From: Ornithinimicrobium ciconiae | Lineage (GTDB): Bacteria > Actinomycetota > Actinomycetes > Actinomycetales > Dermatophilaceae | Direction of reading: 5' to 3' | DNA: 64,000 bases | NCBI RefSeq assembly: GCF_007197575.1 | Contig: NZ_CP041616.1 | Coordinates: forward strand, 1,116,001 to 1,180,000 | In this document: piece after piece, positions 24,833-63,875 of the stretch | Position numbering within the stretch: the stretch's first letter is position 1 | Layout of the letters: each line of letters starts with the position of its first letter | Notes under the pieces: generated by a model | Databases searched by the model: none | What the model was told of the DNA's origin: nothing | The model's input: only the letters and a program-made list of their open reading frames with translations | Program-made: the position numbers and the translations under genes

Positions 24833-25270
24833 TCACTCCTCGTTGGGGTCCCTCTCGGCGTCCTTGTGCTCGGGGTGGACGGTGCCCGGCTCGTGGTCGG
24901 CGGGACCGTAGAGGACATAGACCTTCAGCGGCTCGTCACCGGTATTGGTGACGTTGTGCCAGGTGCCGGCCGGCACCAGGACGATGTCGTCATCCCCGAC
25001 GTCCTTGACGAACGACAGGTCCTTCTTGGTCGGGCCCATCTCGGTGCGGCCCTTGCCCTTCTCCACGCGCAGGAACTGGTCGTTCTTGGGGTGCACCTCA
25101 AGACCGATGTCGTCGCCCACGTCGATGCTCATCACCGTGAGCTGCAGGTGCGCGCCGGTCCACAGCGTCTTGCGGAAGTTCTTGTTGTCGACCGTCATCT
25201 TCTCGATGTTGACGACGTAGGGCTCCTTGCCGTGGTCCTTGCCCGTCGTGAAGGTCTCCTTGTCCGCCAT
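24833..25270 (-). CDS. Cupin-domain protein
   Basis: 145 residues with both cupin metal motifs. Motif 1 is around GLEVHPKNDQFLRVEKGKGR and motif 2 around LVPAGTWHNVTNTGDEPL. This gives a His-x-Asn/Gln-Glu-type set on a small beta-barrel. The tail (HPEHKDAERDPNEE) is acidic. Single-domain cupins of this type are annotated only as sugar/mannose-6-phosphate-isomerase-like, and the substrate is unknown. It is divergent from the ABC-F gene with a 150-base gap. Confidence 0.88.
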   Translation of the reverse strand: MADKETFTTGKDHGKEPYVVNIEKMTVDNKNFRKTLWTGAHLQLTVMSIDVGDDIGLEVHPKNDQFLRVEKGKGRTEMGPTKKDLSFVKDVGDDDIVLVPAGTWHNVTNTGDEPLKVYVLYGPADHEPGTVHPEHKDAERDPNEE

Positions 25271-59885: not shown

Positions 59886-59919
59886 ACTACGCCTCGTAGT
59901 GTTTACTACTGCCTGTAGT
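59886..59919. promoter_or_regulatory. Two tandem copies of the palindrome ACTAC-N5-GTAGT
   Basis: Copy 1 is 59886-59900 (spacer GCCTC) and copy 2 is 59905-59919 (spacer TGCCT). The centres are 19 bases apart. They cover or adjoin a promoter-like pair, TTTACT (59902) and TACGAT (59927), ahead of the RpiB-like gene. The divergent small gene begins 73 bases the other way, so one regulator could control both directions. The regulator is not in the window. Confidence 0.75.
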
Positions 59920-59954
59920 GAAAAAATACGATGGTACGGAGGAGGGCGGCAAGT

Positions 59955-60398
59955 ATGCGCGTAGTCATCGGTTCCCCGGGTAACGGGGCGGCCCTGAAGG
60001 ACGCGATCAAGGAGTTCTTGCAGAGCGATGGGCGGGTCAGCGAGGTGGTTGACCTCTCTGAGGCGGATATCTCCTATCCCGAGGTGTCCTTTCGGGCCGC
60101 GCACGCGGTGGTTGACGGCACGGCGGACCGGGCGGTGCTGGTCTGCGGCACCGGTGTGGGCACCGCGATCGCCGCCAGCAAGGTCAAGGGTGCTCGCGCC
60201 GCGACCGCCCACGACCTGGTCACCGTCAGGGGAGCCGTCGAGAACTATGACGCGCAGATCCTGTGCATGGGACAGAACGTCATCGCGCCCGCTTATGCGC
60301 GGATCCTGGTGGACCTGTGGCTGGACCTGCGGCATGATCCGTCCGGCTTCTACGGACCGAAGGTGCGCGAGATCGCTGAGTTCGAGTCCCGTGCCTGA
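59955..60398 (+). CDS. RpiB/LacAB-family sugar-phosphate isomerase, divergent
   Basis: 147 residues from the ATG behind GGAGGAGGGCGG. The active-site Cys is present in AVLVCGTGVGTAIAASKVKG, with RAATAHDLVTVRGAVENYDA and ILCMGQNVIAPAYARILVDL after it. The family N terminus (GSDHAG in ribose-5-phosphate isomerase B) reads GSPGNG, so the usual Asp-His pair is missing. The substrate may therefore differ from ribose-5-phosphate. It is the first gene of the candidate four-gene operon, 44 bases from the channel gene. Confidence 0.88.
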   Translation: MRVVIGSPGNGAALKDAIKEFLQSDGRVSEVVDLSEADISYPEVSFRAAHAVVDGTADRAVLVCGTGVGTAIAASKVKGARAATAHDLVTVRGAVENYDAQILCMGQNVIAPAYARILVDLWLDLRHDPSGFYGPKVREIAEFESRA

Positions 60399-60442
60399 CC
60401 GGCCAGGACGGACCAGGTCCACAGCGGACCCCGGAGAATGGC

Positions 60443-61348
60443 GTGAGTAGCGACAGCACGATCCTCACGCCGTCGCAGATGGCGAGGGCTGCAGAGGACG
60501 CAGCCTTCGGGAAGGCCACCAGTCATCAGCTCAAATCCTTCCTGCTGGCCCTGACTGCCGGTGGCTACATCGCGCTCGGTTTTGTCTTCTTCACCACGAG
60601 CCAGGTCGGCGCTGACCAGATGCCGTTCGGTGTCGCCAAGGTCCTGGGGGGCTTTGTCTTCGCCACCGGACTGGCGCTCGTCGTGCTCACCGGTGCCGAG
60701 CTGTTCACCTCCTCGACGTTGACCCTGACGGCTCGGGCTAGCGGTCGCATCACCACGTGGCAGCTGCTGCGCAACTGGGTCGTGGTCTTCGTCGGCAACT
60801 TCATCGGCGCCTTGACCATCGTCGCCCTGGTCTATCTCGGCCGGGTCTGGGAACAGGCAGACGGGGGATGGGGCGCCGTGGTCCTGGACGTGTCGCTGAA
60901 GAAGGTCCACCACGACTTCCTCACCGCGTTCATGCTCGGGATCCTGTGCAACCTGATGGTCTGCCTGGCGATCTGGGCCGCCTACAGCGGCCGGACCACC
61001 ACCGACAAGGTCGTGGCCGTCACGATGCCGATCGCCCTGTTCGTGGCCAGCGGCTTCGAGCACTCGGTGGCCAATATGTTCATGATCCCGCTGGGCATCC
61101 TGGTGCGCTCGTATGCCGGCCAGGACTTCTGGGCCTCCTCCGGCTTGGATCAGGCCGCCTACGGCGACCTGACCTGGGCCAGCTTCCTGGTGGACAACCT
61201 ACTGCCGGTCACGCTCGGCAACATCGTCGGCGGTGGGGTCATGATCGGCGTCCTCTACTGGACGATCTTTCACTTCCTCGACCGCCCCGGGAAGGTCATC
61301 GGCAAGGCCACCGTAGGCACCGACTCAGCCAAAGACACAAAGGAGTAA
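60443..61348 (+). CDS. Formate/nitrite-family (FNT) membrane channel
   Basis: 301 residues with six membrane segments, the pentameric FNT fold for small monovalent anions (formate, nitrite or hydrosulfide). The GTG start gives MSSDSTILTPSQMARAAEDA. Family marks are LKSFLLALTAGGYIALGFVF, LTGAELFTSSTLTLTAR, the central pore region HHDFLTAFMLGILCNLMVCL, and the pore-His loop ASGFEHSVANMFMIPLGILV. Which anion passes cannot be told by eye. It is five bases from the following oxidoreductase, so the two are likely a functional pair. Confidence 0.93.
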   Translation: MSSDSTILTPSQMARAAEDAAFGKATSHQLKSFLLALTAGGYIALGFVFFTTSQVGADQMPFGVAKVLGGFVFATGLALVVLTGAELFTSSTLTLTARASGRITTWQLLRNWVVVFVGNFIGALTIVALVYLGRVWEQADGGWGAVVLDVSLKKVHHDFLTAFMLGILCNLMVCLAIWAAYSGRTTTDKVVAVTMPIALFVASGFEHSVANMFMIPLGILVRSYAGQDFWASSGLDQAAYGDLTWASFLVDNLLPVTLGNIVGGGVMIGVLYWTIFHFLDRPGKVIGKATVGTDSAKDTKE

Positions 61349-61352
61349 GGCA

Positions 61353-62876
61353 ATGGACGGCGATTTCCCCCTGTGGTTGAGGGCGCAGCACCTCCTCAAC
61401 TTCATCCTGATCGGGATGCTCATCCGATCGGGCATCGAGATGCTCTCCTCGTTGCCCCGGCTGTGGTGGCGCAAGGACTGCGCGCCCGGCACCGAGTGGC
61501 TGAAGTTCACCAAGCGTGAGCTGCCCAAGGAGGAGGGTGTCTACACCTCCCTCATGGACGAGAAGTCGCTCCACCCGCTCCTCTCGCTCCCAGGGCGGGA
61601 GAACATCGGCCTGGGCCGTCACTGGCACGGACTGTCGGTGATGTTCTGGGTGCTCAATGGCCTGGTCTACATCATCCTGCTGTTCGCCACCGGGCTCTGG
61701 CAGCGGATCGTGCCGACCTCGTGGGACGTCATCCCGCAGGCGTGGGAGTCCTTGAAGATGTATCTGAGTTTCGAGGTCCCGGACATCAGCCACTTCGAGC
61801 CCTATGACGCGCTGCAGATGCTGGGCTACACCTTCGTGATCTTCATCCTGGCCCCGTTCCAGATGCTGACCGGCGTCGCGATGTCGCCGGCTATCCGCTC
61901 CCGTTTCCCGTGGTACGTCAAGATGTGGGGCGGTCACCAGGGAGCCCGCTCCCTGCACTTCATCGGTCTGGTGATCTTCACCGGTTTCATCGTGATGCAC
62001 GTGTCCCTGGTCTTCCTGGTCCACCGCGACCGCAACATCGTCAACATGGTCTTTGGTGGTGGCGAGGTCACCACCGCGCGGGCTGCCCAGGCGCTGGTCG
62101 TCATGGTCGCGGTCATCGTCGCGGTCATCGTGTTCTGGATCGCGCTGTCCTACTGGTCGCTGGCCGACCGGGTCCGTGCCCAGAAGTTCACCGCTGGTGT
62201 CACCGAGATCGGCCGGAAGATCTTCCTGAACCACCTGCGTCCGCTGGGCGCGAAGAAGAAGGCCTACACCGACAAGGACATCTCCGAGTTCCACTGGACC
62301 AACGGCCTGCCGCCCACCCAGGAGGAGTCGCAGTTGTGGGTCGAGGCCCGAGACAATGACTGGGAGGGCCTGACGATCACCCTCCGCGATGACCTCAACG
62401 ACGTGGAGAAGACGCTGACCGTCGAGGACCTCAAGAAGTTGCCGCGCCACTCCTACGTCGCCACCCACACCTGCATGCAGGGCTGGTCGGCCACCTCCCG
62501 CTGGACCGGGGTACGGCTCACCGACCTGATGGAGGTGCTCGGCCCACGACCAGAGGGCGCCCGCTACCTGTTGACCGAGTCCTACGGCCTGGCCCAGAAG
62601 ATGTATGACAACCGTCCTCGCGAGCCCTTCTACGCCGCCATCGACCTGGAGACGATGGCCGAGGAGGAGTCGATCCTGGCCTACGAGCGCAACGACCACG
62701 ACATCGAGGACTACCTCGGGGCGCCGGCCCGGCTGCGCGTGGAGTCCAACCACGGCTACAAGCACGTCAAGTGGGTCTCCCGGGTGATGTGGGTCCGCGA
62801 CTATGCCGACTACGGTGATGGTCGAGGCGGGACACGAGAGGACTCCGCCCTGCAGGCGTTCAACGGAAGGATCTGA
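61353..62876 (+). CDS. Cytochrome b561-like membrane domain fused to a molybdopterin oxidoreductase domain
   Basis: 507 residues. Residues 1-270 carry four to five membrane segments with candidate heme histidines His13, His90/His92, His202 and His216, like cytochrome b of formate dehydrogenase/MsrQ-type partners. Residues about 305-495 are a sulfite-oxidase-fold domain with the molybdenum Cys374 in YVATHTCMQGWSATSRWTGV, ARYLLTESYGLAQKMYDN, and the C-terminal ESNHGYKHVKWVSRVMWVRD. There is no signal peptide, so the side of the membrane is uncertain. The two parts are usually separate proteins. Electron exchange between a small substrate and the quinone pool is inferred. Confidence 0.88.
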   Translation: MDGDFPLWLRAQHLLNFILIGMLIRSGIEMLSSLPRLWWRKDCAPGTEWLKFTKRELPKEEGVYTSLMDEKSLHPLLSLPGRENIGLGRHWHGLSVMFWVLNGLVYIILLFATGLWQRIVPTSWDVIPQAWESLKMYLSFEVPDISHFEPYDALQMLGYTFVIFILAPFQMLTGVAMSPAIRSRFPWYVKMWGGHQGARSLHFIGLVIFTGFIVMHVSLVFLVHRDRNIVNMVFGGGEVTTARAAQALVVMVAVIVAVIVFWIALSYWSLADRVRAQKFTAGVTEIGRKIFLNHLRPLGAKKKAYTDKDISEFHWTNGLPPTQEESQLWVEARDNDWEGLTITLRDDLNDVEKTLTVEDLKKLPRHSYVATHTCMQGWSATSRWTGVRLTDLMEVLGPRPEGARYLLTESYGLAQKMYDNRPREPFYAAIDLETMAEEESILAYERNDHDIEDYLGAPARLRVESNHGYKHVKWVSRVMWVRDYADYGDGRGGTREDSALQAFNGRI

Positions 62877-63127
62877 TGCCGATGGTGAAGATTGTGTCGA
62901 CGTGCTTTCTCGTGGAGGGCGTCACTGACGACCGCGACACGAAGAAGGCGATGCAGCCCCTGTTCGACATCTTCGCTCAGCAGGGTCTGGGCCAGGCGAC
63001 CTTCGAGATCGTGCCGGGTGAGCCGACGCGCCTGTGGATCAAGCACAAGGACAGCGTCCAGCCCAACCGGGACCTGATCGACCAGGCGCTGGCCGAGGCC
63101 GGTGACTACCGGACCATCGACGGCTAG
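62876..63127 (+). CDS. Small protein in the FNT-oxidoreductase operon
   Basis: 83 residues, coupled to the oxidoreductase by an ATG overlapping its last base. The pattern suggests a beta-alpha-beta-beta-alpha-beta ferredoxin-like fold: MVKIVSTCFLVEGV (strand), DTKKAMQPLFDIFAQQ (helix), GQATFEIV and RLWIKHKD (strands), NRDLIDQALAEAG (helix), YRTI (strand). One cysteine is at residue 10. No family is recognised. A regulator, chaperone or cofactor-handling partner of the oxidoreductase is possible. Confidence 0.8.
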   Translation: MPMVKIVSTCFLVEGVTDDRDTKKAMQPLFDIFAQQGLGQATFEIVPGEPTRLWIKHKDSVQPNRDLIDQALAEAGDYRTIDG

Positions 63128-63145
63128 CCACAGCGCACCGGATCC

Positions 63146-63180
63146 CGTGGACCCCGCCCCCTCAGGGAGCGGGGTCCACG
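63146..63180. terminator. Hairpin closing the FNT-oxidoreductase operon
   Basis: CGTGGACCCCGC at 63146-63157 pairs exactly with 63169-63180 around an 11-base loop. It overlaps the 3' end of the convergent YhhN gene, so it can serve both directions. Confidence 0.85.
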
Positions 63181-63875
63181 GCGTTCACGGACGCCACCTG
63201 CGGGCCACGCCCCACCGGGGCCGGGGCCTCCCGGAGCACCCCCAGCACGATCAGCAGCTGCGCGGCGATATAGGTGAGCATCACCCAGAAACCCTGACCC
63301 GGCAGGTCCCACCAGGGGGCGAAGGCGTTGAGTGCGATCAGGCCGTCCGAGACCAGGAAGAGCGCCCCGCCGGCCCAGACCAGACCATTGAGCCCGGTGG
63401 CCAGCACGGCCATGGTGCCCAGCAGGAGCCCGTAGACCAGGACCGGCACGAGCAGCGCACCGGCGTGCGGCGCACAGGCGAGGATGAGGGCGGCGATCGC
63501 TACGGCATACGGCAGGAGCAGACCCCGCCGCTGGTGCAGCACACTCTGGTGGCGGTGGGGCCAGAACGCCACGATGTAGACGACCTGAGCGACCAGGAAG
63601 AAGCCGACCATGAGCAGGAACGAGATGTCACCCTCAGCCAGGTCCGGTGCGCCGTCACCCAACCAGGAGAATCCGAGGGCGACCAGGGTCAGGGTGACAA
63701 GGCGCCCGCGTGCCGCGCCACGTGTGCGGATCAAGAGGTAGGCGGCGAGGACCGGCATCAGGAACCACTGGGAGGCGCTGGCATAGGCCTCCTGGCCGGT
63801 GAGGTGCCACACCAGGTGCACGGTGGCCAGGGCCAGGAAGACTCTCAGGACGATCCGGGCCGGGGTGCGCGTCAT
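63162..63875 (-). CDS. YhhN-family membrane protein (lysoplasmalogenase-like)
   Basis: 237 residues with about eight membrane segments. YhhN/TMEM86 proteins hydrolyse the vinyl-ether bond of lysoplasmalogens in some organisms. FSWLGDGAPDLAEGDISFLL and LNGLVWAGGALFLVSDGLIA hold the two conserved polar Asp regions. The start is set at MTRTPARIVLRVFLALATVH, as the longer upstream frame has no membrane character. The C terminus lies inside the shared hairpin. Enzyme activity is inferred from family only. Confidence 0.88.
   Translation of the reverse strand: MTRTPARIVLRVFLALATVHLVWHLTGQEAYASASQWFLMPVLAAYLLIRTRGAARGRLVTLTLVALGFSWLGDGAPDLAEGDISFLLMVGFFLVAQVVYIVAFWPHRHQSVLHQRRGLLLPYAVAIAALILACAPHAGALLVPVLVYGLLLGTMAVLATGLNGLVWAGGALFLVSDGLIALNAFAPWWDLPGQGFWVMLTYIAAQLLIVLGVLREAPAPVGRGPQVASVNAVDPAP

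Follow-up and report, generated by a model that had tools for sequence, protein, structure and literature searches.

Within a 64,000-nt stretch of the Ornithinimicrobium ciconiae genome (contig NZ_CP041616.1, positions 1,116,001 to 1,180,000; hereafter the window), four genes on the forward strand form an operon, which probably represents an undescribed respiratory module. The first gene (59955..60398) encodes an RpiB-like protein of 147 residues with the PF02502 fold, the second (60443..61348) a FocA-type formate/nitrite channel (FNT) of 301 residues, the third (61353..62876) a 507-residue haem-molybdenum fusion protein, and the fourth (62876..63127) an 83-residue protein; the last two were named MOB and S83 in this analysis. 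All four open reading frames were confirmed at the places given in an earlier sequence-only reading of this DNA, in a tight run with gaps of 44, 4 and -1 bases, the middle gap having been put at 5. The RpiB-like gene has a second in-frame ATG at 59931, and the start at 59955 is preferred because of the GGAGGAGGG stretch.

The operon is preceded by the double operator that had been described, consisting of two ACTAC-N5-GTAGT palindromes, neither assigned to a strand, at 59886..59900 (ACTACGCCTCGTAGT) and 59905..59919 (ACTACTGCCTGTAGT), the second starting 19 bp after the first. A strong hairpin (63145-63181, strand likewise unassigned), on which the S83 and YhhN genes converge, is a probable terminator and lies within a fold of -45.9 kcal/mol (z = -5.35 against 200 shuffles). 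The hairpin of the proposed strong terminator is thus real, but a T tract is absent from it and a scan for consensus promoters and terminators gave no match. No Rfam element in the window reached the gathering score.

The MOB-S83 core

We scanned the genome_contigs collection (one genome per species, 84,980 species) with MOB by exact-peptide matching, which gave 39 loci from 38 genomes, 63–93% identical in the best segment and treated here as close relatives (at least 63% identity). Nearly all were from named actinobacteria, and the one labelled Acidobacteria is placed among actinobacterial rows in a tree of the window, 37 relatives and 4 outgroups, with a long-branch warning for one outgroup. 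MOB and S83 are the conserved core of the module: S83 follows MOB in 38 of the 39 close loci (37 by tblastn alone), the exception being locus L023. On plasmids S83 was found solely with close MOBs (3 records), and no S83 was detected beside the distant MOB loci scanned.

The fusion protein matches PF01292 (cytochrome b561) and PF00174 and nothing else in Pfam at E up to 0.01; the NarI family (PF02665) is not among its matches. Its membrane part (residues 1–270, 61353..62162) has five predicted hydrophobic helices, counting two overlapping hydropathy peaks once as helix 1, with helix 5 the most hydrophobic (3.24 on the Kyte-Doolittle scale); the molybdopterin domain spans residues ~301–507 (62253..62873). 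The candidate haem ligands H13, H92, H202 and H216, located in helices 1, 2 and 4, are invariant, as is the candidate Mo ligand C374 in the motif HTCMQGWS, and the C-terminal tail is strongly conserved. Across the wider family (36 rows), these five residues and H372 are invariant too. The spacing of H202 and H216 is that of FdnI, where the haem histidines are likewise 14 residues apart. A sulfite oxidase assignment was rejected, as MOB scores 25.6–31.4 bits with the SorA, SoxC and SorT sulfite dehydrogenase models, far below their cut-offs of 420–600.

Averaged over 30 MOBs, net charge alternates between the loops (N-terminus -1.7, L12 +2.8, L23 -0.9, L34 +4.2, L45 -0.7, C-terminal part +3.1), and the positive-inside rule therefore predicts an N-terminus outside and a Mo domain in the cytoplasm. 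A twin-arginine motif before helix 5 was absent in 30/30 close rows and 36/36 family rows.

For S83 neither Pfam nor NCBIfam offers a family. Five residues (G15, G39, E44, K56 and H57) are invariant across 32 aligned members, and a CxxC motif is absent in all 38 aligned rows. In hhalign, S83 matched five HMA rows (one truncated) over 64 columns covering the whole domain with a probability of 81.5%, versus at most 1.2% for 60 column-shuffled controls and 0.1% for an unrelated family (A3). S83 thus resembles, at the level of its sequence profile, an HMA metal-binding domain minus its cysteines; the window S83 gives no match to PF00403 at the gathering score, one of 32 members reaches E = 0.0011, and a PDB search with the S83 profile returned two matches at chance level. 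A regular-expression search for CxxC-containing HMA domains found none in the loci fetched by then.

FocA-type channel and RpiB-like protein

The channel belongs to PF01226 and scores 336 bits with the FocA model TIGR04060 (cut-off 290.1). It is 50% identical to E. coli FocA and keeps all seven pore residues compared (F75, L79, T91, N172, F202, F207 and H209). No pyruvate formate-lyase (PFL) was found in this genome, nor in 9 of the 14 FocA- and MOB-containing genomes tested, this one included, and a role of the channel solely in PFL export was rejected on these grounds. The channel thus resembles FocA in score and pore residues, but stands in an operon with MOB rather than with pfl. In a survey of the FNT family (PMC5525234), the partner operons used were pfl, fdhAB, nirBD and asrABC. 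Two Bowdeniella genomes (L158 5397-6296 and L163 5212-6162) also encode FocA-type channels, 54–55% identical to that of the window, next to genes of the Rieske-dioxygenase type, where they perhaps serve an aromatic acid, the functions of the neighbours being judged by eye.

The RpiB-like protein exceeds the cut-offs of PF02502 (113 versus 24.7 bits) and of the TIGR00689 subfamily (90.8 versus 88.3 bits), and falls below those of the RpiB equivalog models (125 versus 168 and 81 versus 139 bits). The E. coli RpiB active-site residues D9, H10, H99, R133 and R137 are replaced by P, G, N, F and K, and are also replaced in 13 aligned RpiB-like relatives; the change of R137 to K in the window protein is mild. 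Since C66 and Y43 are kept, five of seven compared active-site residues are lost, in line with the divergence already noticed from the sequence. By residues alone, a role as ribose-5-phosphate isomerase was rejected. A truncated RpiB-like remnant precedes MOB in Janibacter terrae (L006 5708-5962), and J. anophelis (L038) has an intact copy.

Co-occurrence of the four genes

An RpiB-like gene lies in the cluster in 13 of the 39 loci, upstream on the same strand in eight, divergent in two and convergent downstream in three; an FNT gene is in the MOB operon in 4/39, and two further loci have one close by on the opposite strand. In five genomes (G299, G304, G311, G318 and G326) the RpiB-like gene is separate from MOB, either at a distance or on a different contig, and in Flaviflexus it directly precedes FocA, with MOB-S83 elsewhere. 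The fusion and S83 are therefore the indivisible part of the proposed module, while the other two genes are looser neighbours. They lie apart from MOB in most relatives, which had been named as grounds for giving up the module, yet both co-occur with it in trans.

This was assessed against a class-wide sample of 296 genomes (this genome and 295 others) by Fisher tests, all of which ignore phylogeny. An FNT at FocA level (at least 260 bits) is present in 13/38 MOB genomes and 1/295 others (p ~9e-13); above the curated FocA cut-off the numbers are 11/38 and, in the 296-genome sample, this genome alone. The RpiB-like subfamily (at least 240 bits) occurs in 18/38 MOB genomes and in 0/295 others (p ~1e-19), with 13 of ~30 candidates per genome scored in the class sample. 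Within the 38 MOB genomes the two are associated with each other, as 10 of 13 genomes with FocA have the RpiB-like gene versus 8 of 25 without FocA (p = 0.016). The rows with a same-strand RpiB-like gene fall in one clade (support 100/100), whose 11 rows represent six named families, so that the operon has probably been passed from lineage to lineage.

The neighbouring YchF gene was rejected as a functional partner because it gave a tblastn match in just 4/39 loci. Elsewhere in the window, a cupin on the reverse strand (24833-25270) resembles, by eye, the cupin near MOB in Isoptericola-type loci.

Operator motif and the cytochrome bd link

The ACTAC-N5-GTAGT motif by itself is not enriched, as the 4.09-Mb genome contains 8 sites versus 11 for a reversed-pattern control. 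Just one other close pair exists in this genome (G000:C1:485284-485316, equal to L085 5785-5817), approximately 49 bp upstream of the cydA frame as listed. Next to it are a gene for a Penicillinase_R (BlaI) protein and one for a peptidase scoring above the cut-off for M48 and below that for M56/BlaR1. This second double operator is a probable respiratory BlaI switch. In PMC5473688 (citing Sala 2009), Mycobacterium tuberculosis BlaI is reported to bind the promoters of cytochrome bd and ATP synthase. The MOB operon thus has its palindromic operator in common with a blaI-linked gene, with cydA in this genome alone, and BlaI may be its regulator.

Among the relatives, 6/39 loci have the shorter form CTAC-N5-GTAG, between -46 and -89 from their first gene. 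The 150 bp upstream of that gene contain 7 sites in these loci, versus 2 in the remaining 464 kb, and one of those two is situated just ahead of an RpiB-like gene that is transcribed separately, in L016. Homoserinimonas has no FNT in its MOB locus, and the motif is found there ahead of a FocA gene that stands alone and is 60% identical to that of the window, so that the operator is found in trans, at a separate module gene, in two genomes. One operator motif is therefore common to MOB and to separate RpiB-like or FocA genes in some relatives. Together with the co-occurrence, this bears out the proposed coupling of channel and redox enzyme, and both lines of evidence, with co-occurrence far above chance, underlie our view that the four genes probably form a module.

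Neighbours were read for 25 of 32 operator-like places in five relatives and comprise many unrelated genes; they also include DoxX-like and pyridoxamine-oxidase-like genes common with this genome. The operator upstream of the DoxX-like membrane protein (L088 2342-3000, and L112 in G296) is conserved in two genomes, the DoxX-like call being made by eye for a protein with no family match. In Ornithinimicrobium pekingense (L120 245-1579, G297), an operator-like site stands at the start of a type III sulfide:quinone reductase of the selenoprotein subtype (NF049943).

Distant homologues and known systems

Long homologues of MOB at approximately 30–40% identity are present in actinobacteria, rhizobia and haloarchaea, one distant relative has a split two-gene version, and a further record shows the same gene order as the Rhodococcus locus. 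The one-piece cytochrome-molybdoenzyme recognised at the outset is real, but its fused architecture is not new, considering both these homologues and the published Sco3746. Uncharacterised PF01292 and PF00174 fusions (from Rhodococcus, mycobacteria-like organisms as judged by eye, rhizobia and haloarchaea) have the same candidate haem and Mo ligands as MOB and a similar charge pattern, but no S83, RpiB-like or FNT gene was found alongside those tested, which sometimes have N-oxide genes nearby and, in haloarchaea, TDT/SLAC1 channels. A gene of the latter family is next after MOB in 4/4 haloarchaeal loci read, on the opposite strand in Halobaculum; it is annotated as a tellurite-resistance/dicarboxylate transporter, and the Haloprofundus copy matches PF03595 (SLAC1) in Pfam. 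Haem-Mo fusions may thus have become paired with anion channels on more than one occasion.

PMC5449189 describes Sco3746 as a five-helix haem-molybdenum cofactor (MoCo) fusion, integrated by both the Sec and the twin-arginine translocation (Tat) systems, with members in actinobacteria, firmicutes, chloroflexi and euryarchaeota. Like MOB, it combines in a single polypeptide a membrane part of five helices, with histidines for two b haems, and a C-terminal MoCo domain. It differs in its twin-arginine motif before helix 5 and a weakly hydrophobic helix 5, neither of which MOB has, in the export of its Mo side by Tat, as opposed to the predicted cytoplasmic Mo domain of MOB, and in conserved histidines located in helices 2–4 instead of 1, 2 and 4; the two are set apart here by this published description rather than by sequence alignment. 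No description of the MOB-S83 set was found in the open-licence literature, in which Sco3746 was found. The set is recurrent and, as the sequence-only reading had supposed, apparently undescribed.

Proposed mechanism and alternatives

NarGHI offers a functional parallel to the proposed topology: NarI is a five-helix b-haem subunit with its N-terminus out and C-terminus in, and quinol is oxidised outside for reduction of an oxyanion inside. Because the predicted orientation of MOB is that of NarI with NarG, we propose as best reading, at a rough probability of 0.45, that MOB is an inward-facing quinol-dependent reductase with its own anion channel. MOB would be a quinone-linked membrane molybdoenzyme in NarGHI orientation, its single polypeptide including a Mo domain with the sulfite-oxidase (SUOX)/MsrP fold. 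Unlike NarGHI, it has a PF01292 membrane part rather than one of the NarI family, a SUOX-fold domain rather than NarG, and no Fe-S subunit. With the N-terminus outside, menaquinol would be oxidised near the outer haem (H13/H216), and electrons would move inward via the inner haem (H92/H202) to the Mo centre (C374), which would face the cytoplasm and there reduce a small oxyanion or an N- or S-oxide. The FocA-type channel would pass this anion, or its product, across the membrane. S83 would most likely be a subunit that serves the Mo domain in docking or maturation, and the RpiB-like protein, having kept its fold and lost the residues of a ribose-5-phosphate isomerase, most likely a partner that binds a ligand or has changed its specificity. 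When respiration is restricted, the set could be turned on by a repressor of the BlaI type that also controls cytochrome bd.

As to the substrate, nitrite or nitrate is the most likely option, although a tentative one; formate and the repair of S- or N-oxides or metal-stress damage are both unlikely, the rest of the probability falling to another substrate or to none. According to PMC11218638, denitrifying Haloferax induces a 'molybdopterin-dependent oxidoreductase', which may or may not be a MOB.

Several observations weigh against this reading. The charge pattern is similar in the wider family but weaker in four haloarchaeal rows among the 36, PF01292 proteins such as FdnI have their N-terminus inside, the opposite of the MOB prediction, and SUOX-fold enzymes also oxidise. 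The channel scores 93 bits with the NirC model (cut-off 293) and is FocA-like rather than NirC-like, which favours formate. An FNT at FocA level is missing from 25/38 MOB genomes, several of which have weaker FNT matches, and the RpiB-like gene from 20/38, so that neither is required for MOB-S83 to work. The operator is missing in 33/39 relative loci, just 8 of the 32 operator-like places in the five relatives are at MOB, RpiB-like or FocA genes, and no cydA match was found in the 25 operator neighbourhoods read, so that the link to cytochrome bd is confined to this genome. Finally, in 12 distinct distant plasmid loci, read from 165 matching records with incomplete plasmid gene tables, N-oxide genes are clear near four, ambiguous near one and not seen near seven. 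The four clear cases themselves count in favour of the reading, as do the haloarchaeal TDT/SLAC1 genes. They are nirBD/nas genes in Rhizobium, a NorB-like protein (Pfam) in Haloprofundus, nirK in Halobaculum with a further protein matching the Haloprofundus one in annotation and length, and in Rhodococcus an NsrR-like protein and a flavohaemoprotein, both below equivalog cut-offs. The Rhodococcus 'ctaD' was rejected as NO reductase, as it is an aa3 oxidase. The ambiguous case is Curtobacterium, where an annotated nitrate reductase is in NCBIfam nearest to formate dehydrogenase, below cut-off.

It is also conceivable, if unlikely, that the set is a formate module, in which FocA would import formate and electrons would go to quinone, with MOB either a new kind of formate dehydrogenase or the quinol-consuming partner of a separate one. 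The FocA score, identity and seven pore residues of the channel fit this, and the PFL survey argues that the channel does not simply serve PFL export, although PFL is present in 5/14 of the genomes concerned. Apparent UGA-interrupted formate dehydrogenase frames were seen, by frame length and score, in 11 of 20 MOB genomes read, but Fe4S4 frames of formate dehydrogenase are common across the class and hence not specific, and their co-occurrence was rejected as a clue. In O. ciconiae itself, an Fe4S4 domain like that of formate dehydrogenase (G000:C1:2030616-2030777), found within a frame of 216 codons, possibly belongs, by the same measures, to a UGA (selenocysteine) formate dehydrogenase. Beside the distant MOBs read, no annotated formate genes were seen except the Curtobacterium neighbour. 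Furthermore, we know of no SUOX-fold enzyme that oxidises formate.

A comparably low probability attaches to an MsrPQ-like repair function, the cytoplasmic reduction of protein-bound or free methionine sulfoxide or of other S- or N-oxides when the cell is stressed by oxidants, copper or heavy metals; the HMA-like S83 would be the link to metal handling. The Mo domain of MOB aligns with MsrP, which gives its best NCBIfam score (39.8 bits with NF003767), but this is far below the cut-off of 207. Like MOB, MsrP/MsrQ (YedY/YedZ) combines such a domain with a b-haem membrane partner fed from the quinone pool, but the two are separate genes, MsrP is exported by Tat and MsrQ is of another family, whereas MOB is fused and has neither a Tat motif nor an MsrQ-type subunit. 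MOB as a plain MsrPQ was rejected for want of the Tat motif. A metal-stress role is possible in that MOB-S83 lies inside metal-resistance islands of some relatives, with CueP (Corynebacterium marinum), ars genes (Cellulomonas) or, in the Isoptericola group, Crp/Fnr, HMA proteins or P-type metal ATPases; these islands are a minority of loci, and such a role leaves FocA and the RpiB-like protein unexplained. The C. marinum island (L172) is on the mobilizable plasmid pCmarinum1, and comprises MOB-S83 with CueP, a VIT protein, Crp/Fnr, HMA and a P-type metal ATPase.

Least probable is a loose association, in which the genes would form a convenient, horizontally transferred cassette co-regulated by oxygen or respiration status with no common pathway, as might be read from the single clade of same-strand RpiB-like operons spanning several families and from the many MOB genomes missing FNT and RpiB-like genes; this is countered by co-occurrence that holds for genes lying apart (G299, G311, G318 and G326), by three arrangements of RpiB-like/MOB linkage and by the operators in trans.

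The inward-facing reductase could at its fullest be a new class of respiratory complex, a doubtful extension: a one-chain, energy-conserving quinol:oxyanion reductase (or formate oxidase) with a SUOX fold, in which S83 would be a dedicated Mo-domain subunit, the RpiB fold a ligand sensor, FocA a gate of its own and BlaI-cytochrome bd the switch. The co-occurrence and the common operator make the joint function directly testable. The SUOX fold is known mainly from exported or soluble enzymes; if the proposal is true, it would also drive a membrane reductase that faces inward and, like NarGHI, conserves energy, but with one gene. FocA would gain a partner other than pyruvate formate-lyase, the RpiB fold would gain a probable non-isomerase role, and the actinobacterial BlaI switch would gain a defined respiratory target.

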